A stretch of 18,311 nt of DNA from an uncultured Pseudomonadota bacterium (lineage in GTDB: Bacteria > Pseudomonadota > Gammaproteobacteria > Burkholderiales > SG8-41). The translations under genes and the position numbers were made by a program. Position 1 is the first letter of the stretch, and every line of letters begins with the position of its first letter. A model generated the notes under the pieces. That model saw nothing but the letters and a program-made list of their open reading frames with translations, had not been told where the DNA came from and searched no databases. The stretch spans positions 1-18,311 of the forward strand of contig CAMPGR010000077.1 in NCBI GenBank assembly GCA_946885605.1, given 5' to 3'. Below, piece by piece: positions 1 to 15,235 of this stretch.

Positions 1-1436
1 TCGGTCGCGAAGCGCTCGTGCGCCTGCATTGCCGCGAGCGCGTGTCCCGCGTTCGCCATCTCGTCGTACACCGGGATGCCAAGCTCGACGGCGCGCGCGC
101 GAAACTCGCGCTTGCGATCTTCGAGGGTCGGCTCGCCGTCGGAGCGCAGGACCAGCACGAAATGCGCCTTGCCGGGATGCTGCTTCTGGACCCGAAGCGC
201 GGCGTCCACGAGATTGTCGAGCACTTCCTTCTTGGTGCGCCCGACGAATGCCGAAAGATTGAGATGCATCACGAGCGCATCCGGGTTGCCCTGCTCGTAG
301 ATGATATCGAGTATTGTCTCCGCGACGCGCCCGTCGTCCTGCTGCAGCGTGCCCACCGGGCAATCGACCGGATTGGTGATACTCGTTCCCGGCGGCAGTT
401 TCATCGCGGCGAGCGCATCGATCGCCCGGCGCTCGAACGGCAGCACGTCGAGCCCGAGGCGCGCGAAATAATCCGTCGCGAGCACGCTGGTGCCGCCGCC
501 ATTGCCGAAGAGCACGACGCGTTTCGTCGGCTTCGCCGCGTTGGGCTCGAGCGCCTGGAAGACGAGCAGCGTGTCGATGAACTGGTCGAGCGTGTCCACG
601 AGCACGCAACCGGTCTGCCGGGCGAGTGCGAGCCATACGCGCTCATCGCCTGCGAGCGAGCCGGTGTGCGAGGCGGCGGCCGCGCGCCCCTGCTGGGTAA
701 GACCGCCCTTCAGCACGACGACCGGCTTGCGGGCGCACGCGTCGCGGAGCGTCTCGAAGAGACGCCGCCCGTCCTTCGCTGTTTCGATGTAAAGGCCGAT
801 CACGCGCGTCTGCGCATCCGAAAGATAGTACTCGAGGATGTCGGTGGGCCCCACGTCGGCGCAGTTGCCGATGGTGATCAAGCCCGAGAACTTGAGCCCG
901 CGGTTCAAGCCCCGGCGGATGATATCGGTGCCGAGCCCGCCGCTCTGCGAGATGATGCCGACATTCCCGGTTTCACGCGGCCCGATTTCGGCGAACGTCA
1001 CACGCCCGCGTGGCGTGTAGATGCCGAGACAATTCGGCCCGAGGAGGCGCATGCCGCCGGCACGCGCTGCCGTAGCGAGTTCCTCCTGCAGCGCCTTGCC
1101 TTCATCCACTTCGCCGAAACCGCTCGAGATCACCTGCGCGAAACGCACACGGCCCTTGCCGGCGGCAAGGAGCTGCGGCACCTGGGCGGCGGCGATCGCG
1201 ATGTAGGCGTAGTCCACCGGCTGGGGCGTCTCACCGAGACTCTTGTACGCGGGCAGGCCGTCGATCTCAGCGGCAGTGGGATGGATGGGATAAATCGCGC
1301 CTTCGTAGCCGAACTCGCGGATGCGGCGAATGAAGACGTTGGGCAACGCCGTGCCCTTGGTCGATGCACCGACGACCGCGACGGTCTTCGGTGCGAAGAG
1401 CGCTTCGTATTGCTGAAGTATCTTTTGCGTATCCAT
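1..1436 (-). CDS. NDP-forming acyl-CoA synthetase, alpha (CoA-binding) subunit, partial at left edge
   Basis: This is the alpha half of an ADP/NDP-forming acyl-CoA synthetase (acetate-CoA ligase family), which interconverts acid + CoA + ATP with acyl-CoA + ADP + Pi through a phosphohistidine. Translating the minus strand from the ATG at 1436 gives about 478 residues before the window ends. They comprise a Rossmann CoA-binding domain (VAVVGAS near residue 19, LLGPNCLGIY near 131, ISQSGGLGTDI near 162) and a succinyl-CoA-ligase-like flavodoxin domain with SHTGSLAG. His257 in that motif (codon 668-666) is the expected phosphorylated residue. The visible end (DEMANAGHALAAMQAHERF) looks close to the family's C-terminus, so little is probably missing. 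The start lies 5 bp after the stop of the ATP-grasp subunit, so this is the last visible gene of the operon. The acid substrate cannot be read from the sequence. Confidence 0.9.
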   Translation of the reverse strand, partial: MDTQKILQQYEALFAPKTVAVVGASTKGTALPNVFIRRIREFGYEGAIYPIHPTAAEIDGLPAYKSLGETPQPVDYAYIAIAAAQVPQLLAAGKGRVRFAQVISSGFGEVDEGKALQEELATAARAGGMRLLGPNCLGIYTPRGRVTFAEIGPRETGNVGIISQSGGLGTDIIRRGLNRGLKFSGLITIGNCADVGPTDILEYYLSDAQTRVIGLYIETAKDGRRLFETLRDACARKPVVVLKGGLTQQGRAAAASHTGSLAGDERVWLALARQTGCVLVDTLDQFIDTLLVFQALEPNAAKPTKRVVLFGNGGGTSVLATDYFARLGLDVLPFERRAIDALAAMKLPPGTSITNPVDCPVGTLQQDDGRVAETILDIIYEQGNPDALVMHLNLSAFVGRTKKEVLDNLVDAALRVQKQHPGKAHFVLVLRSDGEPTLEDRKREFRARAVELGIPVYDEMANAGHALAAMQAHERFAT

Positions 1437-1441
1437 CGCGA

Positions 1442-2143
1442 TCATGCCAGCACGAAGCGCGCGTCCACCGCGACGGCGCCTCGATCGGAAACGATGAGCG
1501 GATTCACGTCGGCTTCCTTGATGTCCGCGGCGTGGCGCATCAGGAGACCGTCCTCGCCGCCTATCTTGAGCAGCGTCTCGACGATCGCGGGCTTCGCGAC
1601 GGGCTTTCGGCCGCGCGCGCCTTCGAGCACCGCCTTGCCCTTGAGTTCAGCGAGCATCTCTTCCGCGTCGAGCCGCGTAATCGGGCAGATGCGGAATGCG
1701 ACGTCCGCAAGCACTTCGACGAAGATGCCACCCAGGCCGACCATGACGAGCGGGCCGAAGTCGGCATCGCGCAGGCCGCCGATGACGATCTCCTGTCCGG
1801 CGGGCGCCATCTCTTCCACGAGGAAGCCGTCGATGCGGGATTCCGCGATTACCGGCTGCCGCATCATCGCTTTGATCGCCTGCTGCACCTCGGTCGCAGA
1901 CTGCAGCCGAACCTTGACGCCCCCGGCATCGCTTTTGTGCAGGATGTCGGGGGAGACCACTTTCACTACGTACGGCGGATTGAGCTGCACGAGCGCTTCA
2001 TTCACCTCGTCCGCGCCCCCCACCATGACCGAACGGGGGACCGCAATGCCGTAAGCGCTCAAGAGCGCCTTGCCCGATTGCTCGTCGAGCGCTGTGCGCC
2101 CTTCGCGCCGCGCTCGGTTGATGAGTTCCGTCGTATCCATCAT
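1442..2143 (-). CDS. NDP-forming acyl-CoA synthetase, beta (ATP-grasp) subunit
   Basis: A 233-aa stand-alone ATP-grasp protein that would bind the nucleotide and exchange phosphate with the His of the alpha subunit encoded just downstream. The family signature VVKVVSPDILHKSDAGGVKV lies at residues 59-78, the second conserved block (GPLVMVGLGGIFVEVLADV) at about 130-148, and the metal-binding end (EADVNPLIV) at about 210-218. Its length is right for the ATP-grasp_5 type. In many proteobacteria the two halves are fused in one protein of about 700 aa; here they are separate, with beta first. The start ATG overlaps the stop of the biotin carboxylase gene by 4 bp (ATGA), implying translational coupling. 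A second in-frame ATG follows immediately, so the start is uncertain by one codon. Confidence 0.9.
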   Translation of the reverse strand: MMDTTELINRARREGRTALDEQSGKALLSAYGIAVPRSVMVGGADEVNEALVQLNPPYVVKVVSPDILHKSDAGGVKVRLQSATEVQQAIKAMMRQPVIAESRIDGFLVEEMAPAGQEIVIGGLRDADFGPLVMVGLGGIFVEVLADVAFRICPITRLDAEEMLAELKGKAVLEGARGRKPVAKPAIVETLLKIGGEDGLLMRHAADIKEADVNPLIVSDRGAVAVDARFVLA

Positions 2144-3495
2144 GCCGCCTTCTTCTGGCTCATCACCTGCTGGATGATGCCCGTATGCACTTCGCCATTG
2201 CGGAACGCGCTGGAGTCGAGAACCGCGATGACCGCGGGCGTGTTGTGCTTGATGCCCTGGATATCGACCGCTTTGAGCGCTTCGATCATCCGCTCGATCG
2301 CTTGCTCGCGCGTGGCATCGCGCACGATCACCTTCGCGATCATGGGATCGTAGAACGGCGTCACGTCGCGTCCCTCGGCGTAGCCGGTCTCGACCCGTAT
2401 CGCCTTGTCTTCCGGCAAGCGGAACACCTTGAGCCGGCCGGGCGAGGGAAAGAAGTTCTTCGGGTCCTCGGCATAGATGCGTGCCTGGAGCGCGTGGCCG
2501 GAGAGCGCGATCTCCGGCGGCAGGATATCGGCGAGCCGTTCGCCATCCGCGCTCCGAATCTGCGCGTGCACGAGGTCCACTCCCGTCACCGCTTCGGTGA
2601 CGCCGTGCTCGACCTGGAGCCGCGTGTTCATCTCGAGGAAGCTGAACGTCCCGTCCGCCCCGTAAAGCATCTCCACCGTGCCGATGTTGTCGTATCCCAT
2701 GCCGCGCACCATGGCCGCGACCTTTGCCGCCATCGCGTCGAGCTCGCTCCGCGCGATCGCCGGTGCGGGCGCCTCTTCGATCACCTTCTGGTTGCGGCGC
2801 TGCGTCGAGCAGTCGCGCTCGTAGAGATGCACCGCGCCGCCGTGCTGGTCGCCGAGCACCTGAAATTCCACGTGGCGCGGACGCTCGATCAGCCGCTCGA
2901 GATAGACCTCGGCGTTGCCGAAGCCGCGGCTTGCGAGCGACCGGGAGCGCTCGACCACCGAGAGGAGCTCCGATTCGTTGTGCGCGGCGAGCATGCCGAT
3001 CCCCCCGCCGCCCCCCGCAGGCTTCACCAGCACCGGAAAGCCGGTCTTACGCGCGGCATCGAGTATGGCGTCCGGCTCGGCGGGCAGCACATCCGTGCCT
3101 TCGGAGAGCGGCAAGCCGTGCTCGCGCGCGATCTCGCGCGCCCGCGTCTTGTGCCCCATCGCGCCGATCCACTTGGGTGAGGGCCCGATGAAGCGCACGC
3201 CGGCATCGATGACACGCTGCGCGAACTCGGCATTCTCCGAGAGAAATCCGTAACCGGGATGCACGCCGTCGGCGCCGGAGCGTTGAATCGCTTCCATCAT
3301 CCGCTGCTGGTTGAGATAACTCTCGGCGGCGGGCGCCGGTCCGATGGCCTGCGTCTCGCTCGCCATTTCGAGGTAGGGCGCGCCGTAGTCGGCTTCCGAA
3401 TAGACCGCGACCGACTTGATGCGCAATTCGTAGAGCGCCCGCAGCACGCGCGCGGCCACGGCGCCGCGGTTTGCAACCAGAACTTTCTCGAACAT
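2140..3495 (-). CDS. Biotin carboxylase subunit of an acyl-CoA carboxylase
   Basis: ATP-dependent carboxylation of the biotin on a separate carrier protein. The 451-aa length matches free-standing AccC-type biotin carboxylases, not the longer fused PccA/LiuD type. Visible are the N-terminal Rossmann domain (VLVANRG at 5-11, HPGYGFLSEN at 79-88), the ATP-grasp lysines K116 and K158, the glycine-rich loop at 160-166, H208, the NQKVIEEAPAP block at 235-245, E275, and EMNTRLQVEH at 288-297. By eye these match the catalytic residues of E. coli AccC almost number for number. Three conserved spots differ (see findings). The open frame runs on upstream to 4026, but the ATG at 3495 is the true start: it begins the family N-terminus and follows TGAGG, the upstream stop doubling as a ribosome-binding site. 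It lies 8 bp after carboxyltransferase B. Confidence 0.93.
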   Translation of the reverse strand: MFEKVLVANRGAVAARVLRALYELRIKSVAVYSEADYGAPYLEMASETQAIGPAPAAESYLNQQRMMEAIQRSGADGVHPGYGFLSENAEFAQRVIDAGVRFIGPSPKWIGAMGHKTRAREIAREHGLPLSEGTDVLPAEPDAILDAARKTGFPVLVKPAGGGGGIGMLAAHNESELLSVVERSRSLASRGFGNAEVYLERLIERPRHVEFQVLGDQHGGAVHLYERDCSTQRRNQKVIEEAPAPAIARSELDAMAAKVAAMVRGMGYDNIGTVEMLYGADGTFSFLEMNTRLQVEHGVTEAVTGVDLVHAQIRSADGERLADILPPEIALSGHALQARIYAEDPKNFFPSPGRLKVFRLPEDKAIRVETGYAEGRDVTPFYDPMIAKVIVRDATREQAIERMIEALKAVDIQGIKHNTPAVIAVLDSSAFRNGEVHTGIIQQVMSQKKAA

Positions 3496-3503
3496 GGCGC
3501 GCC

Positions 3504-5039
3504 TCAGTAGCTTGTGGGCCAGCTGCGCATGAGGTGCTGGCCGACGCCTTTGGTGATGCGCAGCTTGTAGACGTCGAGCATGCGGATGAGGTAGTCGCGC
3601 GTCTGCTCGGGCCGGATCACCGCCTGCGCCGCGTAGACCGCCGCGAGCCCCCACACGTCGCTCCCCTTCCGGATCTGCGCGAACTTCTCTTCGAAGCCGG
3701 GCTCGCCCATGCCGACCCCGTGCACGATCTTGGTTGCGAACTCGGGCGACATGAAGCTCACTTCCGCCGTCGGCCACGCGGCGATATCGTCGGAGTGCCG
3801 CCCGCCGCCCATGCATACATAGGCGCGGCCGTAACTCTTGCGGATGATGACGGAGAGCCGCGGCACGGTGACCAGCGTCATCGCGTTCATGAAGTTCATG
3901 ATGCGCCCCGGTGCGCCGGCTTTTTCCGCTTCGGTGCCGATCTGGAATCCGGGCGTATCCACGAGGAGCACGATCGGAACGTTGAAGGAATCGCACAGCA
4001 CGAGAAAATCGACGATCTTGCGGCACGCGTCCGCATCGAGCGCGCCGCCGCGGTGGAGCGGATTGTTGCCGATGATGCCGACGCTTTTTCCCCCCAGCCG
4101 CGCGAGCGCCGTCACCGCGCTCTTGCCGAAACGGGGTTTGAGTTCGAAAACGCTATCCTTGTCGGCGATGCTTTTCACGATGCGCCGCATGTCGTAGACC
4201 TGCGTGCGGCTTTCGGGAAGGATCGAGAAGATCTTGTCCGCCTCGCTCCCCGAGCCCGCGGGCACCGGCGCATCGGGCGGCGGCTCGTTGTGATGGCTGG
4301 GAAGGTAGGAGAGGAATTTCTTGATCGCGTCGAACACTTCCTCCTCGCGATCCACCACCTGATCGACGAGCCCCGTGATTTCGGCGTGCAGCCTCCAGCC
4401 GCCGAGGTCCTCGGGATCGACCTTCTCGCCGAGCGCCATGGACACGAGCCGCGGGCTCGAGACCGCCATCGTCGCGCCTTTCTGCATCACTGCAAAATCC
4501 GACTGGCACATGAGCCAGGTGGAAGAACCGAAGGAGGGGCCGAATGCCGCGGCGCACATGGGCGTTTCGCGCGTGCGGCGGAATTGCGTGTTGTCGTTGC
4601 CGAGAAGCAAGCCCATGCCGCGCGAGCCCATCGCGTCGGGAAGCCGCGCGCCGGTCGATTCGCCGATCACGACGAACGGCATGCCGCGCTCGGTGGCGGT
4701 GCGCTTCATGTGTCCAACCTTCTTGCTGTTGGTGTAGGACGTCGATGCGCCTTTCACCGTGAAATCGTTGACGACGATCGCCACATCCCGCCCGTTGATC
4801 CGCCCGTACCCCGCGAGCTTGCCGTCGGTCTGCGTTTCGTCTTCCTGCTCGGGATAGACGCCCGATGAACCGAAGAGCCCTGATTCGATGAACGAGTCGG
4901 GATCGACGAGCGCCGCAATGCGCTCGCGCGCGTTCCATACGCCGCCCGCCTTGCGCCTTGCGTACTTCTCCTCGCCGCCTCCCGCGAGCGCCTTCGCGCG
5001 GCGCGCTTCGTACTCTTTCAACAATGCTTCAAATGCCAT
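3504..5039 (-). CDS. Acyl-CoA carboxylase carboxyltransferase subunit B (PccB/AccD-like)
   Basis: A 511-aa two-domain carboxyltransferase that moves CO2 from carboxybiotin to an acyl-CoA. The N-terminal crotonase-fold domain has WNARERIAALVDPDSF (about 35-50), IGESTGARLPD (about 125-135) and DLGGWRLHAEITG (about 211-223). The C-terminal domain has GIIGNNP (about 321-327), LLVDTPGF (about 358-365) and RKSYGRAYVCMGGG (about 400-413). Length is normal for a PCC/MCC beta subunit. The start is supported by GAGGT five bases before the ATG. It is the second of two carboxyltransferases in the operon and lies 8 bp before the biotin carboxylase gene, its probable partner. The usual oxyanion-hole glycine pairs are altered (GPSFGSS, KSYGRAY). 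The acyl-CoA substrate is unknown. Confidence 0.9.
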   Translation of the reverse strand: MAFEALLKEYEARRAKALAGGGEEKYARRKAGGVWNARERIAALVDPDSFIESGLFGSSGVYPEQEDETQTDGKLAGYGRINGRDVAIVVNDFTVKGASTSYTNSKKVGHMKRTATERGMPFVVIGESTGARLPDAMGSRGMGLLLGNDNTQFRRTRETPMCAAAFGPSFGSSTWLMCQSDFAVMQKGATMAVSSPRLVSMALGEKVDPEDLGGWRLHAEITGLVDQVVDREEEVFDAIKKFLSYLPSHHNEPPPDAPVPAGSGSEADKIFSILPESRTQVYDMRRIVKSIADKDSVFELKPRFGKSAVTALARLGGKSVGIIGNNPLHRGGALDADACRKIVDFLVLCDSFNVPIVLLVDTPGFQIGTEAEKAGAPGRIMNFMNAMTLVTVPRLSVIIRKSYGRAYVCMGGGRHSDDIAAWPTAEVSFMSPEFATKIVHGVGMGEPGFEEKFAQIRKGSDVWGLAAVYAAQAVIRPEQTRDYLIRMLDVYKLRITKGVGQHLMRSWPTSY

Positions 5040-5050
5040 GTATGACCTCG

Positions 5051-6049
5051 CTACGGATGTCCTGCCTTGAGTTTCCGGACCTCGTCGATGAAAGCCGGAA
5101 TGAATTGCTGATAGTCGGCGATGACGCCGAAGCGCGCTTCCTTATAGATCGCCGCGTCCGGGTCGGTGTTCACCGCGACGATCGTCTTCGCGTTGCCGCA
5201 GCCCGCCATGTGGTGTCCGGCGCCGGAAATGCCGACCGCGATATACAAATCGGGCTGCACCGTGCGGCCGGTGAGCCCGATCTGCCACCCGCGCGGGCAC
5301 CAGCCGAGATCGCACGGCACGCGGCTTGCGCCGACGGCTGCCCCCAGCGTGCCGGCGAGCGCTTCCAGCGCGCGGAAACCTTCCGGTCCGTTCAAGCCGC
5401 GCCCGCCCGCGACGATGACGCTGGCGTCTTCGAGGCGAACGCCCTCGTATGCTTCAGCGCGCCGCTCGATGATCCTCACCCGTTCGCGCTCCGCGTTCAG
5501 TTCGGGCGTGAACCGGCTCATCGTGCCTTGACGCATTTCATCGCGCGCTGCCGCTTGCGCGCTGCCTGCGCGCACCGTCGCGACCGCGACACCGCTCTTG
5601 AATGAAAGCGTTTCGCGCACGTTGCCGCCGTAACATGGCCGCGTGAACTGGTACTTGCCGTCCCGCCAGGCAATCTCCACGCACCCGGTTGCTGCCGATC
5701 CATCAAGCCGAAACGCAAGTCGCGGCGCCAGATCGCCGCCGAGCGCCGTGTGCGCCATCAGCACGAGCGCGGGCTGCGCTTCGCGGCAAAGCTGTGCCGC
5801 CGCGCTCACCCATGCTTCACTCTGATAGGGCTCGAGAGCGCGGTCCTCGACGGCATAGACGTGATCTGCGCCGAGGGCGATCAGCTCGCTCGACGATTCG
5901 TTTCCGCAACCGGTAAAAGAGGCGGCCGCCACCCGCGCGCCGGTTTGGGCCTTGAGCGATAGTCCCAGTTCCGTAAGCTCGCACGTCAGCCGGTTCGGTC
6001 GACCGTCGGCAACTTCGGCAATGATGAGGATCGACCCGGCCGCGCTCAT
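5051..6049 (-). CDS. etfA: Electron transfer flavoprotein alpha subunit
   Basis: The FAD-binding subunit of the soluble ETF heterodimer, which takes electrons from flavin dehydrogenases and passes them to ETF:quinone oxidoreductase. The 332-aa protein has the N-terminal ETF fold (SILIIAEV at 6-13) and the C-terminal FAD domain: VAGGRGL at 213-219, then GLTGRTVQPDLYIAVGISGA at 258-277, AGHHMAG, and TIVAVNTDPDAAIYKEARFG at 289-308. The usual GQTG reads GLTG and the Ile of SGAIQH is Gly, both mild departures. Its ATG overlaps the ETF beta stop by 4 bp and its stop is 11 bp from carboxyltransferase B. No acyl-CoA dehydrogenase or ETF-QO gene is visible, so the partner is not identified. Confidence 0.93.
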   Translation of the reverse strand: MSAAGSILIIAEVADGRPNRLTCELTELGLSLKAQTGARVAAASFTGCGNESSSELIALGADHVYAVEDRALEPYQSEAWVSAAAQLCREAQPALVLMAHTALGGDLAPRLAFRLDGSAATGCVEIAWRDGKYQFTRPCYGGNVRETLSFKSGVAVATVRAGSAQAAARDEMRQGTMSRFTPELNAERERVRIIERRAEAYEGVRLEDASVIVAGGRGLNGPEGFRALEALAGTLGAAVGASRVPCDLGWCPRGWQIGLTGRTVQPDLYIAVGISGAGHHMAGCGNAKTIVAVNTDPDAAIYKEARFGVIADYQQFIPAFIDEVRKLKAGHP

Positions 6050-6837
6050 ACGAGATTCGCCGCGCGAAGTTGCTGGGCGAGTGCCGCGGCCTGCTCCTGC
6101 ACCGAGCCCGTAATGAACTCACATAGCCCCTCTTTGGTGGGCGTGTAGAGCCCCTCGCGGGTGCTGCGCACATGGAGCCCCTCGCCCATCACCGCGAGAT
6201 CAGACACTTTCCATACCGCGACCGGCTTTCGCGCCGCCCGCATGGTTTCGCGCAGGTTAGGCGTGCGCGGCGGGCCAAGTTCGTTCGATACGGTGACGAG
6301 AGCAGGCAGCGCGGCTTCGACGACCTCCGTGCCGTCATCCAGCACGCGTTCCACACGCAGCGCGGCGTCCTGCACACGCATGTCCTTGGCGTAGGTGATC
6401 ACCGGCAGGCGGAGCAGCTCGCCGATGCCCGCGCCCACGATACCCGCATCGCGATCCGCCGACTGCCGTCCCGTCAGAACGAGATCGCAGTTGCCGAGCT
6501 TGCGGATTGCCGCCGCAAGGGCATGCACGGTTACATAACCGTCGGCCTCGTCCAGAGCGGGATCGCAAATCAGAACGCCTTCGTCGGCACCCATGGCAAG
6601 TCCGTGCTTGATCGCATTGCGCGCGCTTTCCGGGCCGAGCGACATGACGGTGAGCTTGGTGCCGGGATGCATTGCGCGGATGCGCAGTGCCGCCTCCACC
6701 GCCTGCTCGTCGAACGGGCTCATCACCATTGGCAGACCCGGCGCGGGGACGACCCGCTTCGCCGCCTCATCGACCTTGAACATGCTGAAGGCCGCTTCGG
6801 GGTTCGGCACCTGCTTGGCGCACACGACGATATGCAT
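6046..6837 (-). CDS. etfB: Electron transfer flavoprotein beta subunit
   Basis: The AMP/adenine-binding partner of ETF alpha, 263 aa, of normal length. It begins MHIVVCAKQVPNPEAAF, carries LTGRQSADRDAGIVG at 121-135 (the nucleotide-binding loop), and has the beta-subunit signature region VSNELGPPRTPNL followed by a basic stretch. The order beta then alpha with an ATGA overlap is the standard arrangement. The start lies only 4 bp after the stop of the sulfite-oxidase-family gene, with no separate ribosome-binding site that I can see, so translation is probably coupled. That spacing ties ETF synthesis to the molybdoenzyme and suggests, but does not show, that they work together. Confidence 0.93.
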   Translation of the reverse strand: MHIVVCAKQVPNPEAAFSMFKVDEAAKRVVPAPGLPMVMSPFDEQAVEAALRIRAMHPGTKLTVMSLGPESARNAIKHGLAMGADEGVLICDPALDEADGYVTVHALAAAIRKLGNCDLVLTGRQSADRDAGIVGAGIGELLRLPVITYAKDMRVQDAALRVERVLDDGTEVVEAALPALVTVSNELGPPRTPNLRETMRAARKPVAVWKVSDLAVMGEGLHVRSTREGLYTPTKEGLCEFITGSVQEQAAALAQQLRAANLV

Positions 6838-6841
6838 TTCG

Positions 6842-8086
6842 CTAAACGATGGTCACGTCCGTGGGCACGATGCCGTCGAAGTGCTTGCGCTGGTAGTTCC
6901 ACGGAATCTGCGGCTGCACGCGGCCGGTCTCATCCGTCGCCCGCGCGCGGATGCGGTAGTGGCCGGGCTCTTGCGGTTCCCAGAGATGCGACCAGCGCAC
7001 CCAGAGCCAGCGCTCGCGCGGCTCTTCGAGATGCGCGTCCACCCACGTCTTCCCGTCGTCCACGCTCACCTCGACGCGAGTGATCGCGCCCATGCCGCTC
7101 CACGCAAGGCCGCGGATCTTGTGCGCGCCGCGCTCGAGGGGCGAATCCTCGTCGAGCGGATCGATGATGATGCACCGGACGCCCATCGCGGTGATCATTT
7201 CCTTGTTCGGGTCGCCAGGCGAGTTGCCGTAGACAAAGTAATGTTTCTGGTAGTAGCACTCCGGCATGCGGTCGAGCACCTCGACTCTCTGCAGCCACTT
7301 CACCCACCAATTGCCAGACCAGCCCGGCACGACCGCGCGCACCGGCGCGCCGTGGACGTGCAGCAGGTACTCGCCGTTCATCGACCATGCAAGCAGCGTG
7401 TCGGGATGCAGCGCTTTCGCGATCGGCAAGCCCTTCTCGTAATTGATGACACCCGGATCGACGAGCTTGAAGTCGGAGCGCCCCACGGAGCGATATTGCA
7501 CGGCGAGGTCAGGCTGCCCGCGGTCGTATCCTTCCATGCGCACCGAGACCGCGCCCGGCTTCAGCCCTGCCTTCTTCAGCACTTCGGCGAGCGGCACGCC
7601 GGTGAACTCGCCCGCGCTCATCGCACAGGTGGTGGTCGACTCGTTGCCGATCTCGTCGGTGGACGGCACCGCATTCTGCTCGCGCTGCACGGCGCGCTTC
7701 TGCATGTCCTGCTGGTTGATGCGCGAGGGCTTGCGGCCGCCCTTCTTCAGGTAATCGAAATAGCCGGCATCGTTGCCGGCGCACTCGGTCACCGCACGCA
7801 CGGTGCGCCCGCGGAGCTTCTGCAGATCCTTGAGCGAAAGCTCGATCGGCCGCTCGACTTCACCGCTCACGCTCAAGATCCAGTCGTCGGGATGGATCGG
7901 CTCGGGCACTTCGAGCTGGTTCACGACGTAGTACGCGTCGGTCGGCGTGATGAGACCCTCGAGCTCCGTGATCGGCGCACGCCCGTTGATGACGCGGCCC
8001 TGCGAGTCCTTGCCCGCGATCAGCGCCGGACGCTTGCGGTCGGGCCAGCCCATCACCCAGTCGCCTTCGATCTCCCGCTTCGGCAT
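6842..8086 (-). CDS. Sulfite-oxidase-family molybdopterin oxidoreductase (SoxC/SUOX-like), no export signal
   Basis: A 414-aa member of the sulfite oxidase fold: a molybdopterin-binding core (about 45-285) then the Ig-like dimerisation domain (about 295-400). Cys102 in the ECAGN motif (codon 7783-7781) should be the molybdenum ligand. Other landmarks are GEFTGVPLAEVL (159-170), HGAPVRAVVPG (245-255), VKWLQRVEV (262-270), GLAWSGMGAITRVEVSVDDG (326-345) and RATDETGRVQPQIPWN (382-397). There is no heme domain and no twin-arginine or Sec signal, so the enzyme is predicted to be cytoplasmic, unlike SoxC or SorA. The arginines that hold sulfite in SUOX (chicken 138 and 190) align with V55 and A107, so the substrate may not be sulfite. 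The start at 8086 is chosen because AGGAG stands 7 bp before it; an in-frame ATG at 8110 would add eight residues. Confidence 0.85.
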   Translation of the reverse strand: MPKREIEGDWVMGWPDRKRPALIAGKDSQGRVINGRAPITELEGLITPTDAYYVVNQLEVPEPIHPDDWILSVSGEVERPIELSLKDLQKLRGRTVRAVTECAGNDAGYFDYLKKGGRKPSRINQQDMQKRAVQREQNAVPSTDEIGNESTTTCAMSAGEFTGVPLAEVLKKAGLKPGAVSVRMEGYDRGQPDLAVQYRSVGRSDFKLVDPGVINYEKGLPIAKALHPDTLLAWSMNGEYLLHVHGAPVRAVVPGWSGNWWVKWLQRVEVLDRMPECYYQKHYFVYGNSPGDPNKEMITAMGVRCIIIDPLDEDSPLERGAHKIRGLAWSGMGAITRVEVSVDDGKTWVDAHLEEPRERWLWVRWSHLWEPQEPGHYRIRARATDETGRVQPQIPWNYQRKHFDGIVPTDVTIV

Positions 8087-8131
8087 GGTGTTGCTCCTCT
8101 CTCGAATCAACGGTATTCGAATGATGTGCGC

Positions 8132-9700
8132 TCAGGGCCGCACGCCAGCTTTGTATTTCGGGCCGAGCTGCGTCATGAGCCGCGGCTGCAGCGCATCGAT
8201 GAACTGGCAAAGATACGGCCGCGTCTCGCGCGGGTCGATGAGATCTTCGATCGCAAAGGCCTCGGCGGTGCGAAACGGCGAGGCGAGCTGCCGCAGCTCC
8301 TCCTCGATTTCCTTCTCGCGCTGCGCGGGATCCGGCGCGCTCTCGATCTCCTTGCGGTAAGCCGCTTTCACCCCGCCCTCGACGGGAAGCGAGCCCCATT
8401 CGGCGGATGGCCAGGCGATCTTGAAGTTGAGCCCGCGGCGATCGATGGCACTGCCGCCAGCCACGCCGTAGCACTTGCGCACGATGACGGTGAAAACCGG
8501 CACGCTCACCTGCAACCCGATGTAGCGGGCACGCACCCCTTCGCGGAGGATCGCGTTCGCTTCCGACTCCGCACCCACCATCAACCCCGGCACATCGGCG
8601 AAGAAGATGAGCGGGATATGGAACATGTCGCACAGCTCGGCGAAGTGGCCCTGCTTGCGCGCCGCCTTGTGGTCGACGATGCCGCCGAACATCGGGTTGT
8701 TCGCGACGATGCCGACGACTTTTCCGTTCATGCGCGCGAGCGCCGTGATAATGCCGCGTCCGAAAGTCGGTTGAATCTCGAAGAGCGAGTCCCGGTCGAC
8801 GACAAGCTCGACCAGCTTCTTCATGTTGTACGCCTGCCGCGCCGAGCGCGGCACGATGTCGGCCAGCGCATCCTCGCAGCGATCGACCGGGTCGTCGCAG
8901 GTGAGCGCGGGCGGCAACTCCCAGACGTTCGTCGGCATGTAGGAGAGGAAGCGCCGGATCTGCCGGAAACAGTCCGCCTCCTCCATCGCCGTATTGTCGA
9001 TGGTGCCTGCGGTGTCGACCGCCACTTTGACCCCGCCCAGCGCATCCTTGGTGAGCTTCTCGCCGAACGCGCGTTCGACCACCGGTGGGCCCGCGGCAAA
9101 GATCTGGCCCGTGCCCTGCACCATGATCGACCAGTGTGCGAGGATCGCGCGCGCCGAGGGTCCCCCCGCCGTCGTGCCCATCACGGCGCTCACGACGGGG
9201 ACGATACCCATCAAGTCCACCGAGCGCTCGAATCCGTCCTGCCCGTAACCCGGCACGACGGTATAGCCCTTGCGTTTCGCGGTGTTGACCGTGCCGCCGG
9301 TGCCGTCGATCAGATTGATGAGCGGGATGCGGTACTCGTACGCGAGATCCTCGACGAATCCGCCCTGTCCACCCTTGCGCCGGTCGGCGCCGAAGCTCGT
9401 TCCGGCGCGGATGGTGTAGTCCTCGCCGCCGATGGCGACCGGCCTGCCCTCGATGCGGCCGATGCCCATCACGTAGGGCGCAGGCTCGAAGCCGATCAGG
9501 TTTCCCGCTTTGTCATAGCTGCCGCGCCCGGCGAGCTTCCCGACTTCGCGAAAGGAACCCGAATCGAGCACCCGCGCGATGCGCTCGCGCACGGTGAGCT
9601 TGCCGGCGGCATGATGCTTTGCGACCGCCTCCGGCCCGCCACACGCTTCCGCGAACTTGCGCCGGCGGTGGACTTCCTCGATCTCGGCTTTCCAGCTCAT
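8132..9700 (-). CDS. Acyl-CoA carboxylase carboxyltransferase subunit A (PCC/MCC beta-like)
   Basis: A 522-aa carboxyltransferase, clearly diverged from the one at 3504-5039. The N-terminal domain shows LTVRERIARVLDSGSF (35-50), GEDYTIRAG (92-100), LINLIDGTGG (127-136), and the intact oxyanion glycines TTAGG (176-180), with GGVKVAVDTAGTIDN further on. The C-terminal domain shows GIVANNP, FFADVPGLMVG, RKCYGVAGGSA and WPSAEWGSLPVEGG. The tail AIEDLIDPRETRPYL is typical of the family. It follows the biotinyl carrier gene by 16 bp and precedes the molybdoenzyme gene by 45 bp. With only one biotin carboxylase and one carrier visible, the two carboxyltransferases may form a mixed complex or serve two substrates in the same pathway. 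Substrate unknown. Confidence 0.9.
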   Translation of the reverse strand: MSWKAEIEEVHRRRKFAEACGGPEAVAKHHAAGKLTVRERIARVLDSGSFREVGKLAGRGSYDKAGNLIGFEPAPYVMGIGRIEGRPVAIGGEDYTIRAGTSFGADRRKGGQGGFVEDLAYEYRIPLINLIDGTGGTVNTAKRKGYTVVPGYGQDGFERSVDLMGIVPVVSAVMGTTAGGPSARAILAHWSIMVQGTGQIFAAGPPVVERAFGEKLTKDALGGVKVAVDTAGTIDNTAMEEADCFRQIRRFLSYMPTNVWELPPALTCDDPVDRCEDALADIVPRSARQAYNMKKLVELVVDRDSLFEIQPTFGRGIITALARMNGKVVGIVANNPMFGGIVDHKAARKQGHFAELCDMFHIPLIFFADVPGLMVGAESEANAILREGVRARYIGLQVSVPVFTVIVRKCYGVAGGSAIDRRGLNFKIAWPSAEWGSLPVEGGVKAAYRKEIESAPDPAQREKEIEEELRQLASPFRTAEAFAIEDLIDPRETRPYLCQFIDALQPRLMTQLGPKYKAGVRP

Positions 9701-9716
9701 CGTTCGCGCGAGGCTG

Positions 9717-9938
9717 TCAGTCTTCGAGTATCGCCACGACCTGGCCCTCGGCGACCGGGTCTTTCTCCTTCACGAGGATCTCCTTCACGGTGCCGCCGTC
9801 CTCGGTGATGACCGGTATTTCCATCTTCATGGACTCGATCACGATCAGCGTGTCGCCGGACTCCACTTTGTCACCGGGCTTCGATTTCACCTGCCATACC
9901 GTGCCGGTGATCTCGGACTTGACTTCGACTCTGGCCAT
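9717..9938 (-). CDS. Minimal biotinyl (BCCP-like) carrier protein
   Basis: A 73-aa free-standing biotinyl/lipoyl domain. It holds the attachment motif ESMKME at 35-40, with Lys38 as the biotin site, between the paired beta-hammerhead halves (GTVWQVKSKPGDKVESGD and GTVKEILVKEKDPVAEGQ). It lacks the proline/alanine-rich linker of full-length AccB, which makes it the compact type found with acyl-CoA carboxylases. It would shuttle carboxybiotin between the biotin carboxylase (2140-3495) and the carboxyltransferases. It is the promoter-proximal gene of the operon. GAGGAG lies about 11 bases before the ATG, followed by an A-rich run. Confidence 0.93.
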   Translation of the reverse strand: MARVEVKSEITGTVWQVKSKPGDKVESGDTLIVIESMKMEIPVITEDGGTVKEILVKEKDPVAEGQVVAILED

Positions 9939-10050
9939 TTTTTTCTACGCTCCTCGAAAGTGAATGTCGCAAACCGGCGCTCAAGCAGCGACCCAGCGGG
10001 GAACTTGCAGGACTTGACGCGGCGGCGCCCGGGCACGGAACGCCAGCCGC

Positions 10051-10080
10051 ATCGTAAGCGTGCGCCTTCGATGTTGTCAA
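10051..10080 (-). promoter_or_regulatory. Predicted sigma70 promoter of the minus-strand carboxylase/ETF operon
   Basis: On the minus strand TTGACA (10080-10075, a perfect -35) is followed after 18 bp by TACGAT (10056-10051, 4 of 6 to the -10 consensus). Transcription would begin near 10044 and leave a leader of about 105 nt before the biotinyl gene. The -35 box lies in the left arm of the inverted repeat shared with the rightward promoter. Predicted from sequence only. Confidence 0.55.
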
Positions 10081-10097
10081 GAAGATTGTTGACAATC
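10074..10097. promoter_or_regulatory. Predicted GntR/FCD operator: nested palindromes over both -35 boxes
   Basis: Two nested symmetries are visible. TTGTCAA (10074-10080) and TTGACAA (10089-10095) form a perfect 7-bp inverted repeat across 8 bp. GATTGT (10084-10089) and ACAATC (10092-10097) form a perfect 6-bp palindrome across 2 bp. The core TTGT-NN-ACAA suits the short GT...AC operators typical of FCD-type GntR regulators, and the regulator gene is directly adjacent. A protein bound here would cover the -35 elements in both directions, consistent with autoregulation and control of the operon. Confidence 0.6.
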
Positions 10098-10117
10098 CTA
10101 CAACGCGGCGCTATCGT
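10089..10117 (+). promoter_or_regulatory. Predicted sigma70 promoter of the GntR regulator gene
   Basis: TTGACA (10089-10094, perfect -35), a 17-bp spacer, then TATCGT (10112-10117, 4 of 6 to the -10 consensus). The start point would fall at about 10123-10125, on or next to the regulator ATG at 10125, implying a leaderless or nearly leaderless mRNA. The -35 sits inside the predicted operator. Confidence 0.55.
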
Positions 10118-10124
10118 CGCCCGC

Positions 10125-10892
10125 ATGACGGCTCCTCGTCGAACCCTTCCCTCGGCAGCACAGGCGCACTTCAGGCTGCCGCGCGCCGCCGCGCCGCTCA
10201 CCCAATCGCTCCCGGAGCAGATCGCAGCCCAGCTTTCGGAACGCATCGTCACCGGGGCGTACGAGCCGGGGCAGCGCATCCTCGAGCAGGCGATCGCGGC
10301 CGAGTTTTCGGTAAGCCGCGGGCCGGTGCGCGAAGCGCTGCGGCTGCTGGAGCGCGACGGGCTCTTGACCATACTGCCCCGGCGCGGCGCGCAGATCACC
10401 AATTTGAGCACGGCCGAAGTGAAGGAAATTTTCGATATCCGCGCGGTGCTGAACGGCCTGCGCGATCGGGAGCTCGCCGAAGACCCCGATCGCATGCGGC
10501 TTCTGCCGGCGCTCGAGGCGGAGGTGGCGAAGCTCGTGCGTTATGCCCGCCAAGCCGACATGGGCGACGCGTACATCGAGACCGTGTTCGCGCTGAACCG
10601 ACTGCTCACGCAGGCCTCGCGCAACAGCCGGTTGCGCACGATACTCGATTCACTTGCGCTGCAGACGCTGCGCTACTCGCGCCTCGGGCTCTCGACGCCG
10701 CAGCGGCGCCGCCAATCTGTCCAGAACTGGCAGAAACTGGTAAAAGCGATCCGCGAAGGCGATGGCGCCGCGGCCGAACGCGCCGCGCAGCAACGCGTGC
10801 TCGATTCGCGCGATGCGGCGATCCGGCAGCTGGAAGAACACCATGCGGTGGCGCCGACCTCGCACGCGATCAGGTCGCGCCGCGCCGCCTGA
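10125..10892 (+). CDS. GntR-family transcriptional regulator, FCD (FadR-like) subfamily
   Basis: A 255-aa DNA-binding regulator, divergent from the carboxylase/ETF operon and probably its local controller. The winged helix-turn-helix spans about 26-90, with IAAQLSERIVTGAYEPGQRI, LEQAIAAEFSVSRGPVREAL and LLERDGLLTILPRRGAQI as the family landmarks. The helical FCD effector domain spans about 95-235. The His residues that bind metal in many FCD domains appear replaced (ALNRLL where FH..L is usual, QNWQKL where .H..L is usual), so the ligand mode may differ. The frame is open upstream to 9657, but the ATG at 10125 is chosen because the predicted promoter and operator lie just before it. No Shine-Dalgarno is visible. 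The ligand is probably an acyl-CoA or acid of the pathway (inference). Confidence 0.9.
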   Translation: MTAPRRTLPSAAQAHFRLPRAAAPLTQSLPEQIAAQLSERIVTGAYEPGQRILEQAIAAEFSVSRGPVREALRLLERDGLLTILPRRGAQITNLSTAEVKEIFDIRAVLNGLRDRELAEDPDRMRLLPALEAEVAKLVRYARQADMGDAYIETVFALNRLLTQASRNSRLRTILDSLALQTLRYSRLGLSTPQRRRQSVQNWQKLVKAIREGDGAAAERAAQQRVLDSRDAAIRQLEEHHAVAPTSHAIRSRRAA

Positions 10893-10919
10893 TCGACATA
10901 TTCCACCAAGGACGTTCGA

Positions 10920-11723
10920 ATGACCCTGCCTCAAATGACTGATGCCGCGCTCACGGTCGAGGGCCGTGTGGCGGTTCTCACCTTCAAGCGCGACGACGTG
11001 CGCAATGCGCTCACCAGCACCGCGCTCGTCGAAGACATCCCGCATGCGATCGAATGGGCGAATGCGAATCCGGCGGTCTCCGTGCTCGTCATGACGGGCG
11101 AAGGGAGCGCATTCTCCGCCGGCGGCAACATCAAGACCATGGGAGAGCGCAGCAAGGCGCCGCCGCACGTCCTGCAGCAGAACTACCGGAGCGGCATACA
11201 GCGAATTCCGCTCGCCCTCGAGGCCGCCGAGATTCCCGTCATAGCGGCAGTCAATGGCCCGGCGATCGGCGCCGGGTTCGACATGGCGAACATGTGCGAC
11301 ATCCGGATCGGATCGACCAACGCCCAGTTCGGCGAGACGTTCGTGAACCTCGGCATCATCCCGGGAGACGGCGGTGCGTGGTTCCTGCAAAAGCTCGTGG
11401 GGTATCAACGCGCGGCCGAGCTCGTCTTTACCGGCCGCATCGTGAAAGCCGAGGAGGCGAAGGCGATTGGGATCCTGCTCGAAGTGACGAGCCCGGAAGA
11501 GTTGATGTCGCGTACGCTCGAGATCGCACGCAAGATCGCCGCCAAGCCGCCGCTCGCGGTGCGATACGGCAAGAAGCTCCTGAAGCTCGCGCAGCGCCAG
11601 AATCTCGAAGAGCATCTCGATATCTGCGCGGCCTACCAGGCGATCTGCCACAAGACCGAGGATCACGCGGAAGCCCTCGCCGCCTTCTTCGAGAAGCGCG
11701 CCGGCCGCTTTGAGGGCAAATGA
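10920..11723 (+). CDS. Crotonase-superfamily protein (enoyl-CoA hydratase/isomerase-like)
   Basis: A 267-aa crotonase-fold protein acting on a CoA thioester. The oxyanion-hole segments are present: FSAGGNIK at 65-72 and GPAIGAGF at 113-120. Aligned by eye with rat mitochondrial enoyl-CoA hydratase, the two catalytic glutamates (144 and 164) become Asp121 (GAGFDMANMCD) and Phe141 (FGETFVNLG). Acidic residues appear nearby at Glu139 and Asp150 (PGDGGAW). A simple hydratase is therefore doubtful; an isomerase, hydrolase or decarboxylase is as likely. AAGGA stands 7 bp before the ATG. The gene follows the regulator by 27 bp on the same strand, so it is likely co-transcribed with it and part of the same CoA pathway. 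Confidence 0.88.
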   Translation: MTLPQMTDAALTVEGRVAVLTFKRDDVRNALTSTALVEDIPHAIEWANANPAVSVLVMTGEGSAFSAGGNIKTMGERSKAPPHVLQQNYRSGIQRIPLALEAAEIPVIAAVNGPAIGAGFDMANMCDIRIGSTNAQFGETFVNLGIIPGDGGAWFLQKLVGYQRAAELVFTGRIVKAEEAKAIGILLEVTSPEELMSRTLEIARKIAAKPPLAVRYGKKLLKLAQRQNLEEHLDICAAYQAICHKTEDHAEALAAFFEKRAGRFEGK

Positions 11724-12418
11724 ACGTGAGGCGTATCGCGGCGCAGGCACTCGCCGCGCTCGGCCTAGCTTTGGCCGTCGCCGCCGCGGACGCGCAGCAG
11801 ACCGAGCCGCGGAAGCTCATGCCAGTGGATGAAGCGGCCAAGGATCCATCGTGGGTGAGCTTCAGGCGACAGCTCCTCGACGCCCTTGCCAGGCACGACC
11901 GCAAGTTCCTGCTTTCGGTGATCGACCGCAACATCCGCAACCCGCTCGATGCGCCGCGCGGGGTCGCGGTATTCCGCAAGCACTGGGACCTGGAGGCCGA
12001 TGACAGCCCGCTGTGGCGCGAGTTGCCGGCCGCGCTTTTTCTCGGCAGTGCGTGGCTGAAACCGGAGAAGGGGCCGCGCCAGCTCTGCGCGCCCTACGTT
12101 GCGGTGAAGTGGCCGGATGATGTCGATCCCTTCGACTACGGCGCGATCACCGCTCGCGACGCGCTTGCCAAGTCCGCGCCTTCATCGGATTCCGAAACAC
12201 TGGCGACGCTTGCCTACGACCTCGTGCACGTGACTGATTGGGAGGTCGCCGACCGCGCGGCGGACAGCAAGCAGAAGTGGGTGAAGATCCGCTTGAAGGA
12301 CAAGGACGCTTACGTGCCGGAAGAGCAGGTCCGCAGTCCGATCGAGCATCGGGCCTGCTTCGTGAAAACCGAGGGCGGCTGGCGCATGGTCGCGTTCGTC
12401 ATCGGCATGGAGAAGTAG
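11720..12418 (+). CDS. Secreted SH3-like domain protein of unknown function
   Basis: A 232-aa protein with a signal peptide (charged MNVRR, an Ala/Leu core, likely cleavage after ADA at residue 25), so probably periplasmic. Residues about 45-150 form an alpha-rich region that I cannot assign. Residues about 160-207 look like a bacterial SH3 barrel (LATLAYDLVHV, KWVKIRLKDKDAYVPEEQVR), followed by a conserved-looking end (RACFVKTEGGWRMVAFVIG). Two cysteines (123 and 213) could pair after export. Its ATG overlaps the crotonase stop by 4 bp (ATGA), so translation is coupled. The pairing of an envelope protein with a cytosolic CoA enzyme is odd and may only reflect shared transcription. Confidence 0.75.
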   Translation: MNVRRIAAQALAALGLALAVAAADAQQTEPRKLMPVDEAAKDPSWVSFRRQLLDALARHDRKFLLSVIDRNIRNPLDAPRGVAVFRKHWDLEADDSPLWRELPAALFLGSAWLKPEKGPRQLCAPYVAVKWPDDVDPFDYGAITARDALAKSAPSSDSETLATLAYDLVHVTDWEVADRAADSKQKWVKIRLKDKDAYVPEEQVRSPIEHRACFVKTEGGWRMVAFVIGMEK

Positions 12419-12432
12419 CGGCGCGGCGCCCG

Positions 12433-13407
12433 ATGAAGCGGGCCGTATGGTTGGTGGCGGCGTTATTCATGGCGACTTCCGCACACAGCTTCGACTTGCA
12501 GGCCCACCGCGGCGGGCGCGGCCTCTACCCCGAGAACACGCTCCCCGCCTTCGCACATGCGCTGGGACTCGGCGTCACGACGCTCGAGCTCGATTGCGCC
12601 ATCACGCGCGACGGCGTGGTTGTCGTAAGTCACGATGCGCTGCTCAATCCTGAAATCACGCGCGGCAAGGACGGCGCGTGGCTCGCGCTGCCGGGACCGC
12701 CGATCTGGCATCTCACCTACGACGAACTGCGCCGCTACGATGTCGGCCGCATCAAGCCCGGCACCTCTTATGCCGCGCGCTTCCCGAATCAGCATGCTGT
12801 GGACGGCGCGCGCATGCCGCGGCTTGCCGAGGTGTTCGAGCTCGCGCGCCGCGCGGGAAACGACAGCGTCCGGTTCAACATCGAGACGAAGACTGACCCG
12901 CAACATCCGGAGCGCACCGCGGAACCGGAGCGCTTCGCGCGCAAGCTGATCGAGGTCGTGCGCAGAGCCAGTATGGAACGGCGCGTCGCGATCCAGTCCT
13001 TCGACTGGCGCACGTTGCGCGTGGTGCAGCAGGAGGCGCCGGAGATTTCCACCGTCTATCTCACTGCGCAGCAGGACTTCACGGACAACATCCTCGCCCG
13101 TCACGCGGAGTCGCCGTGGACGGCGCCGCTGCACGTGCGGCACTTCGGGGGTTCCATTCCGCGCATGGTGAAAGCGGCGGGTGGCGCGGTGTGGTCGCCC
13201 TATTACGCGGAAGCCACGCGCGAGAACGTCGCGGAAGCGCAGCGCCTCGGTCTCAAGGTGATTGTCTGGACGGTCAACAGCGAGGCCGCTATGCGGCGGA
13301 TGATCGATCTCGGCGTCGACGGCATCATTTCGGATTATCCCGACCGCCTGCGCCGCGTCGCCGGCGAGCGCGGTATCGCGCTCCCCGCGGCGACGCCGCT
13401 ACGCTGA
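12433..13407 (+). CDS. Exported glycerophosphodiester phosphodiesterase
   Basis: Hydrolyses glycerophosphodiesters released from phospholipids to glycerol-3-phosphate and an alcohol. The 324-aa protein has a signal peptide (MKRAVWLVAALFMATSAHS, cleavage likely after residue 19). The GDPD catalytic set follows: HRGGRGLYPENT at 25-36 (His25, Arg26, Glu34), LELD at 51-54 (Glu52, Asp54) and His67 in VSHDALL. The TIM-barrel end is marked by VIVWTVNSEAAMRRMIDLGV and DGIISDYP. Length fits the periplasmic GlpQ/UgpQ group. The start at 12433 is preferred to longer in-frame options because it begins the signal peptide 14 bp after the SH3 gene. Its 3' end overlaps the convergent phosphoesterase gene by 9 bp. 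Confidence 0.9.
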   Translation: MKRAVWLVAALFMATSAHSFDLQAHRGGRGLYPENTLPAFAHALGLGVTTLELDCAITRDGVVVVSHDALLNPEITRGKDGAWLALPGPPIWHLTYDELRRYDVGRIKPGTSYAARFPNQHAVDGARMPRLAEVFELARRAGNDSVRFNIETKTDPQHPERTAEPERFARKLIEVVRRASMERRVAIQSFDWRTLRVVQQEAPEISTVYLTAQQDFTDNILARHAESPWTAPLHVRHFGGSIPRMVKAAGGAVWSPYYAEATRENVAEAQRLGLKVIVWTVNSEAAMRRMIDLGVDGIISDYPDRLRRVAGERGIALPAATPLR

Positions 13408-13917
13408 GCCACCCCGCGGGCGACCCTGTACGTCGAACTCGACGAGCCGCGCGTCGATGCTGTCTCCCGCGATGGTGAGCTCCGCCGCAGCAATCGGGAG
13501 ACTGAAGCGGCGCGGCCCCGCGCTGCCGGGATTGACGTAGAGAACGCCGTCGCGCTCGGTGATACGCGGACGGTGCGAGTGGCCTGAGACCACCACCCGG
13601 AATCCCGCCGCGGCAGGGTCGACGTCGAGCGCCGCGAGGTCGTGCAGGACGTAGATCAGCACCTCGTCGATCTCCAGCACTTCGGTCTCCGATAACCGCA
13701 TCGCCCACGCGCCCTTGTCGTTGTTGCCGCGAACGGCGGTCACGGGCGCGATGGCGGCAAGCCGGTCGAGTATCGCCGCGTCGACGATGTCGCCGGCGTG
13801 AACGATGAAGTCGCTGCCGCGGAGGAACGCAGTCGCTTCAGGCCGCAGCAGCCCGTGCGTATCGGAAATGAGTCCCACGCGCGCGGGGCGAGTGCGCCTC
13901 CGGGTGACGACAGGCAT
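13399..13917 (-). CDS. YfcE/MJ0936-type metallophosphoesterase
   Basis: A 172-aa calcineurin-like phosphodiesterase of the small YfcE class. All metal-binding motifs are present in order: DTH at 19-21, GD at 42-43, GNND at 64-67, His92 and GHSH at 112-115. The C-terminal NPGS (129-132) is typical of the class. Family members hydrolyse simple phosphodiesters in vitro; the natural substrate is usually unknown. No signal peptide, so cytoplasmic. It is convergent with the GDPD gene and overlaps it by 9 bp. Its start, at 13917, is divergent from the lipoprotein gene, with no clear Shine-Dalgarno. Confidence 0.9.
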   Translation of the reverse strand: MPVVTRRRTRPARVGLISDTHGLLRPEATAFLRGSDFIVHAGDIVDAAILDRLAAIAPVTAVRGNNDKGAWAMRLSETEVLEIDEVLIYVLHDLAALDVDPAAAGFRVVVSGHSHRPRITERDGVLYVNPGSAGPRRFSLPIAAAELTIAGDSIDARLVEFDVQGRPRGGSA

Positions 13918-14524: not shown

Positions 14525-14548
14525 CCGCCAGACCGCTCTCGTAACTAG

Positions 14549-14580: not shown

Positions 14581-14582
14581 CG

Positions 14583-15227: not shown

Positions 15228-15235
15228 GGCGGGAA

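Follow-up and report, generated by a model that had tools for sequence, protein, structure and literature searches.

A sulfite-oxidase-fold molybdoenzyme linked to a distinct electron transfer flavoprotein within a biotin-dependent carboxylase operon

Nine genes in two modules

We analyzed a stretch of 18,311 nucleotides, called the window below (contig CAMPGR010000077.1, positions 1 to 18,311, assembly GCA_946885605.1), from an uncultured Pseudomonadota bacterium that GTDB places in the Burkholderiales lineage SG8-41. The window carries nine genes on the minus strand, in transcription order BCCP, CT1, SOX, ETFB, ETFA, CT2, BC, ACSb and ACSa. The subject of this report is the triad in their middle: SOX, a molybdoenzyme of the sulfite oxidase fold, and the two subunits of an electron transfer flavoprotein (ETF). 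An initial annotation, made from the sequence without database searches, had described a single operon with spacings of at most about 45 bp behind one predicted promoter, and had judged the combination of families unusual. The strand, order and spacing were borne out by the coordinates, Pfam and NCBIfam searches agreed with the families of all nine genes, and the combination is indeed unusual.

Six of the genes make up what we call module 1. BCCP (9717–9938) encodes a 73-aa biotin carrier with an ESMKM biotinylation motif, read from the sequence (PF00364; NF004547 above cut-off). CT1 (8132–9700, 522 aa, PF01039) is a PccB/MmdA-type carboxyltransferase whose best solved relatives are acyl-CoA carboxylase beta chains, and CT2 (3504–5039, 511 aa, PF01039) is a second carboxyltransferase. 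BC (2140–3495) is a biotin carboxylase (PF00289, PF02786, PF02785). ACSb (1442–2143, PF13549) and ACSa (3–1445, PF13380 and PF13607) are the ATP-grasp and CoA-binding subunits of an NDP-forming acyl-CoA synthetase; ACSa is cut by the window edge and covers positions 2–446 of the 447 in TIGR02717. With biotin carboxylase, biotinylated carrier and carboxyltransferase all present, module 1 contains a biotin-dependent acyl-CoA carboxylase, and from its families it would convert an organic acid to a CoA thioester, by means of the synthetase, and then carboxylate it. Propionyl-, 3-methylcrotonyl- and geranyl-CoA carboxylases draw on the same three families, but the window differs from them in its free-standing 73-aa carrier, its two unlike carboxyltransferases and its linked NDP-forming CoA ligase. 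At the position equivalent to PccB Asp422, which we take to be the residue selecting propionyl-CoA, inspection by eye found Val in CT2 and Gly in CT1.

Module 2 consists of SOX (6842–8086, 414 aa from a conserved ATG; PF00174 and PF03404), ETFB (6046–6837, PF01012) and ETFA (5051–6049, PF01012 and PF00766). These three genes fill the 3.1 kb interval from CT1 to CT2, and module 2 is a cassette sharing one apparent transcription unit with module 1. From the coordinates, BCCP and CT1 are 16 bp apart, and CT1 and SOX 21 bp (TTG start) or 45 bp (ATG start), the latter being the largest spacing in the block. Gaps of 4, 11 and 8 bp lie at SOX-ETFB, ETFA-CT2 and CT2-BC, and ETFB-ETFA, BC-ACSb and ACSb-ACSa each overlap by 4 bp. 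Ahead of the block lies one promoter-like site on the minus strand (10080–10051, TTGACA-18-TACGAT), sigma-70-like by consensus match only, as the initial annotation had predicted.

Separability of the modules and pairing of SOX with ETF

A SOX profile search of a collection with one genome per species (84,980 species) matched 68 loci (L001–L068). The 29 loci closest in SOX (L001–L029) bear betaproteobacterial record titles, except L013, which is titled only as a bacterium. Titles of L030–L068 name Alpha-, Gamma- and Deltaproteobacteria and Chloroflexota (SAR202, Dehalococcoidia), plus five betaproteobacterial loci (L036, L039, L043, L066, L068), among which the sole named strain is Glaciimonas immobilis DSM 23240 (L068). 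All 14 of the loci in L001–L029 with at least 8.7 kb downstream kept SOX-ETFB-ETFA-CT2-BC-ACSb-ACSa in this order on one strand, a conservation that exceeds chance. Three of the 15 shorter loci deviate: L003 has an additional carboxyltransferase after CT2, L006 has TctC receptor and CoA transferase homologues between ETFA and CT2, and in L028 SOX directly precedes CT2, with no ETF. No carboxylase or ligase genes were found in the fetched stretches of the 39 loci L030–L068, including the five betaproteobacterial ones. The conserved co-occurrence that the initial annotation had proposed as a check therefore holds for the closest loci and does not extend to the more distant ones.

Variation within the closest loci was also seen. 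L014, L019 and L022 showed no CT1 in the interval from the carrier gene to SOX, and CT1 was therefore rejected as an obligatory part. For the region beyond the window edges we relied on relatives' loci, in which an Fe-alcohol dehydrogenase or a CaiB-type gene is added after ACSa; of the three relatives typed at this position, L015 has a CoA-transferase and L020 and L025 have an Fe-alcohol dehydrogenase, and none has the acyl-CoA dehydrogenase that had been suggested. A FadJ-like fusion enzyme lies between BC and ACSb in eight loci of one homologue cluster, one of which was typed.

We then considered relatives that lack SOX. In the family of G014, 60 of 74 genomes (by row count) have CT2 at 79% identity or more, and 22 of the 60 have SOX. 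From the 38 genomes with such a CT2 and no full SOX match we fetched 20 loci, and 19 of these had neither SOX nor ETF by homology; in the remaining one, L202, a SOX-type ETFA adjoins CT2 where the contig ends, and we treated this locus as a carrier. Seventeen of the fetched loci have both carboxyltransferases. With CT2 assumed to start at 511 aa, 14 of them show a distance of about 20–184 bp from CT1 end to CT2 start, and L200 one of 471 bp; in L198 and L212 the distance is about 2.3 kb, and the interval contains genes that match, by homology, a TctC receptor and a CaiB-type CoA transferase. SOX presence changes at least seven times on a tree of CT2 (40 rows, of which 21, L202 included, have SOX); this is a quick tree with 18 of 37 inner branches weak. 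In close relatives the core operon is complete with neither SOX nor ETF, and the triad has the character of an accessory cassette.

These findings bear on the pathway that the initial annotation had proposed, a single linear nine-gene route in which an acid is made into a CoA thioester, carboxylated and oxidized through ETF, a molybdenum step being indispensable. The tight spacing, the one promoter-like site and the recurrence of the seven-gene order in every SOX-carrying close relative with enough sequence all suit such a route. Set against it are the core operon that stays intact without SOX-ETF, the SOX-ETF genes that occur elsewhere without carboxylase genes, and the lack of an acyl-CoA dehydrogenase among the nine genes. 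The earlier proposal is thus partly supported: the observation of the block stands, its single pathway does not, and we regard a linear route as improbable.

To quantify the pairing of SOX with ETF, we counted adjacency in the 61 of 68 loci whose sequence continues for 540 b or more past SOX; seven were dropped because their stretches end, none of them showing ETFB. In 51 of the 61, among them alpha- and gammaproteobacterial loci without a carboxylase gene in the fetched stretch, ETFB lies behind SOX in the same orientation; for L030–L068 the count is 27 of the 39 loci. The ten loci without it are L028, L031, L032, L033, L036, L037, L041, L046, L047 and L061. In L033 a SOX-type ETF divergently adjoins SOX, and L036, L037, L041 and L061 hold second SOX copies in assemblies that also have a linked SOX-ETF copy.

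Whole genomes were surveyed as well. Among 399 genomes of the order of Glaciimonas, ten have SOX and 11 have a SOX-type ETFB (E <1e-70), all ten SOX carriers being shared; the next ETFB match below this set has E 4.4e-47, and in the 11th ETFB carrier (G363) a contig end cuts SOX down to its last 98 residues. Two of 385 genomes in the class of G002, both previously known carriers, have SOX, and the same two have the SOX-type ETF. Of the 74 genomes in the family of G014, 25 have SOX and 22 the ETF (E <1e-60), with 21 shared; those with SOX and no ETF are G797, G799 and G848, where SOX is near a contig end by coordinates, and G843.

One could suppose that the client of this ETF is an acyl-CoA dehydrogenase whose gene lies elsewhere, and that the ETF stands beside SOX only through a shared pathway. 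Acyl-CoA dehydrogenases are the classical ETF clients, and a MaoC dehydratase adjoins the triad in SAR116. We give this little likelihood, as SOX and ETF are linked across widely differing gene contexts and the ETF subfamily co-occurs with SOX. The nine genes contain no client for the ETF other than SOX, which we counted in favor of a SOX-ETF partnership.

Some further observations concern the SOX genes and their records. Three loci (L024, L027, L029) have two tandem SOX genes ahead of ETFBA, the copies differing in sequence. Five metagenome-assembled genomes (MAGs) titled Bordetella parapertussis (L009, L012, L015, L021, L023) have SOX at about 80% identity, like environmental betaproteobacterial MAGs, and the species name on these records looks wrong. 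A plasmid collection gave 455 SOX-matching records, all below 60% identity; the best 20 of the 455 are at 33.5–35.9%, and several are named sulfite oxidase.

The SOX pocket and the ETF subfamily

The molybdopterin-binding (PF00174, 140.3 bits) and molybdenum-cofactor dimerisation (PF03404, 58.4 bits) domains place SOX in the sulfite oxidase family, and the best match in a Foldseek structure search was SorA (2blf, E 4.5e-31). Its scores are far under the NCBIfam cut-offs for the known members: 201.8 bits against 420 for SoxC, 189.4 against 600 for SorA and 148.1 against 570 for SorT. With SorA, SorT and SoxC it shares both domains, the fold and the molybdenum-ligand Cys, C102, which aligns with the SorA Cys and is invariant in 29 of 29 rows. 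It differs from them in its pocket. SorA Arg55, His57 and Arg109, which we take to be the sulfite-binding residues, are replaced in the alignment by V55, Q57 and A107 of the window SOX; across the 29 rows there is no Arg at 55 or 107, and Gln57 is present in all 29. SorA numbering was read from the alignment and agrees with the mutant structure titles R55M and Y236F. Tyr236 of SorA, presumably the catalytic Tyr, aligns with Y283 of SOX, or with F284 in the absence of a one-residue gap, both placements occurring among the alignments. Judged by these alignments, SOX lacks the strict Arg/His pocket signature of sulfite oxidation, in agreement with the altered pocket noted in the initial annotation.

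An AlphaFold model of SOX has a mean pLDDT (predicted local distance difference test) of 78.8 and is weak in the pocket loops 45–60 and 238–246, so the claims about the pocket were drawn from alignments and not from the model. No export signal was seen by eye in SOX, a further difference from SorA, SorT and SoxC, as is the linked partner, an ETF and not a cytochrome c. The N terminus is conserved from its first residues, which, with no export signal, fits a cytosolic SOX meeting a cytosolic ETF.

SOX might be a cytosolic sulfite oxidase with ETF as its acceptor, serving either to detoxify free sulfite or to exploit it, the ETF part being common to this explanation and to the one we favor below. 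The fold, the retained Cys ligand and a Tyr at or one residue from the Tyr236 position speak for it; the replaced Arg and His residues, and the invariance of Gln57, speak against it. We consider it unlikely, though with a real share of the probability, and return to it with the neighboring sulfur genes.

The window ETF is an electron transfer flavoprotein by its domains, PF01012 in both subunits and PF00766 in alpha. It belongs to a SOX-linked subfamily whose signatures are GRQ[AS]ADxD in EtfB and, in most rows, CDLxW and Q[IV]GL[ST]G in EtfA. Where housekeeping rows read GKQAIDDD..Q in EtfB and QVGQTG in EtfA, the window instead reads GRQSADRDAG and QIGLTG, and by these motifs the SOX-linked ETF is not the housekeeping ETF. 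An ETFB match was found in 14 of the 15 SOX-carrier genomes searched, and ten of these genomes have, besides the SOX-type ETFB, a second weaker one at 29–41% identity (nine at 29–34%). A weaker ETFB class, at 37–43% identity, is present in G014-family genomes with and without SOX.

The closest solved relative of ETFB is CarD of the caffeyl-CoA reductase Etf CarD/CarE (6fah; 170.6 bits, against 87.3 for human 1efv), and that of ETFA is a Clostridium Etf (5ol2; 196.1 bits against 133 for 1efv). Unlike in these systems, the partner gene in the window is a molybdoenzyme and not an acyl-CoA dehydrogenase. CarD reads IDGDTA where the window EtfB reads ADRDAG, and the bifurcating-type EtfB GRQAIDGDTAQVG motif of CarD is only partly kept in the window EtfB, although the CarD and Clostridium ETFs are its closest solved relatives. 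An ETF-quinone oxidoreductase (ETF-QO) gene lies within a few kb of the triad in L044, L045, L063, L068 and L139 (typed by Pfam in L044 and by homology in the others; the L139 copy is on the opposite strand).

Electrons could in principle run the other way, from ETF to a SOX that reduces an oxidized substrate such as a sulfoxide or an N-oxide. MsrP, of the same superfamily as SOX, is a reductase, and the window ETF resembles bifurcating-type ETFs more closely than it does human ETF. ETF-QO near the triad in five loci, though also seen in a control window, suggests delivery to quinone instead, and a reversed flow seems distinctly improbable to us.

Two side observations touch the ETF genes. A RibBA-like riboflavin-synthesis gene lies near the triad and ETF-QO in L068 (by sequence reading) and L139 (by NCBIfam). 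A sister ETF in L084 and L116 shares about 40% identity with the window ETFB; the long open reading frame ahead of it resembles, by eye, a flavin-dependent dehydrogenase, a candidate for another dedicated ETF pair.

Taken together, we favor, with a probability of roughly 0.7, an arrangement of two modules in which SOX is a cytosolic molybdoenzyme with its own ETF as acceptor. SOX would oxidize its substrate and pass electrons directly to the dedicated ETF, which would deliver them to the quinone pool via ETF-QO. Several points weigh against this view. Gene adjacency by itself is no proof of electron transfer, and most SOX-locus records are MAGs by title. L028 is a real exception to the pairing, and no SOX-type ETF was found in G843, its genome by coordinates; the dropped locus L030 is probably another exception, since the gene that begins in its 463 b looks different. 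The genomes of L032 and L046 have SOX with only a 44–45% ETFB relative elsewhere, that of L031 gave no ETFB match, and that of L047 has only a 29% ETF. Eight of the ten SOX carriers in the order of Glaciimonas are loci known from the 68-locus search, so that survey adds information mainly in its negatives and in the two new carriers, G020 and G154. Finally, ETF-QO was also found in one of 40 control windows (described below), and the ETF-QO near the triad may therefore be the ordinary enzyme.

Gene surroundings, substrate leads and significance

On the plus strand, divergent from the operon, lie a GntR/FCD regulator (10125–10892, start codon approximate; PF00392, PF07729), which adjoins the core operon in relatives whether or not they carry SOX, and an enoyl-CoA hydratase-like gene, ECH (10920–11723; family by sequence inspection), homologues of which lie beside GntR in relatives. 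A second sigma-70-like site, divergent at 10089–10117, fronts the GntR gene; two such sites were found against 0.1 expected from shuffles. The next gene (11720–12418, plus strand) encodes an exported-looking protein of no assigned family, which 34 of 49 loci (L001–L029, L198–L217), with or without SOX, carry close to the operon; its homologue in L002 gave no Pfam match at 1e-6. Further along, at 14583–18025, we noted by eye a carbonic-anhydrase-like gene, a methyltransferase-like gene and two convergent LigD ligase/polymerase-domain-like genes. None of these was found near the operon in the 49 related loci, the ligase query being a weak test because it had two stops. The carbonic-anhydrase-like gene (minus strand, about 14583–15250) was rejected as a part of the system, with 0 of 49.

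Sulfur genes occur near some cassettes in four lineages without the carboxylase. The cultured Glaciimonas immobilis DSM 23240 (L068) has SfnG (525 bits, cut-off 383) and an MsuE-like reductase (scoring under its own cut-off) about 4.5–6.3 kb beyond ETF-QO and 8–10 kb from SOX. In an extra 20 kb stretch next to it (L138), SoxC (572 bits, cut-off 420), MaoC-like and MFS-like genes lie about 16–20 kb from SOX; MaoC, MFS and SoxC there are 59, 49 and 51% identical to genes around SAR116 triads. SoxC is present in four SAR116 loci (L048, L049, L053, L054), MaoC in 12 loci besides L138, and NtaA/DmoA-type monooxygenases near SOX in L033 and L047. As a control we used 40 windows of 20 kb from six genomes (G001 7, G002 10, G003 8, G004 6, G005 2, G006 7), which represent only part of the case lineages, and none contained homologues of SfnG, DmoA-type, SoxC, SoxY, SoxZ, MsuE, MaoC or MFS genes. 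Because the neighbor queries were picked from case loci after inspection, and each locus of origin is thereby bound to count, this is a background check and not an enrichment test; the case set also includes L138, an extra stretch with no control counterpart, and SoxY, SoxZ and some other neighbor names were assigned by eye. TauD, tried as a marker of sulfonate context, was rejected, being present in 2 of 71 case loci against 3 of 40 control windows.

These neighbors would suit a sulfite oxidase as well as a SOX acting on another sulfur compound. None of the sulfur genes (SfnG, DmoA-type, SoxC and the others) was found in L001–L029, the loci of the window's type, which weighs against a sulfur role here and against oxidation of free sulfite. 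Homologues of xanthine-dehydrogenase-type hydroxylases lie instead near L036, L039, L043, L044, L045, L063 and L066, again pointing away from sulfur. A sulfur substrate for SOX is a lead and not a result; our guess is that SOX acts not on free sulfite but on some other sulfur compound, reduced or organic. In a separate observation, an S-(hydroxymethyl)glutathione dehydrogenase gene (L054:5090–6217; 603 bits, cut-off 544) lies a few kb from a SAR116 triad, which hints at formaldehyde release.

The initial annotation had suggested an organosulfur acid such as 3-sulfinopropionate. The organosulfur part gains indirect support from the sulfur genes near other cassettes and none from L001–L029; for 3-sulfinopropionate in particular we found nothing, and the nine genes include no acyl-CoA-dehydrogenase-like desulfinase. 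In a paper on the 3-sulfinopropionate route of Advenella mimigardefordensis, a TctC receptor lies near acd and mdo by gene number (PMC5373536). The likeness of that route to our locus is a general one, sulfur-acid catabolism; nothing among the nine window genes corresponds to its acyl-CoA dehydrogenase (acd) or its mercaptopropionate dioxygenase, and the word "carboxylase" is not present in the main text (PMC5373536). A SAR116 study describes sox, soeABC, ssuD and msmA genes, and the parts of it examined do not mention a SOX-ETF system. By title or abstract, none of the matches listed from the open-licence part of PubMed Central pairs a sulfite-oxidase-family enzyme with an ETF.

In its fullest form, our proposal is a new arrangement for the sulfite oxidase family: a cytosolic SOX whose pocket no longer binds sulfite, acting on an organosulfur substrate and passing electrons through a dedicated ETF and ETF-QO to quinone, carried as a cassette across Proteobacteria. 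We put the chances of this whole combination at about even. Since the cultured Glaciimonas immobilis DSM 23240 carries the triad about 9 kb from sfnG, the idea is directly testable. If correct, a molybdoenzyme with its own ETF would represent a new redox partnership and would lengthen the list of ETF clients, and it would provide an annotation rule for proteins that are now called sulfite oxidase or YedYZ-like.

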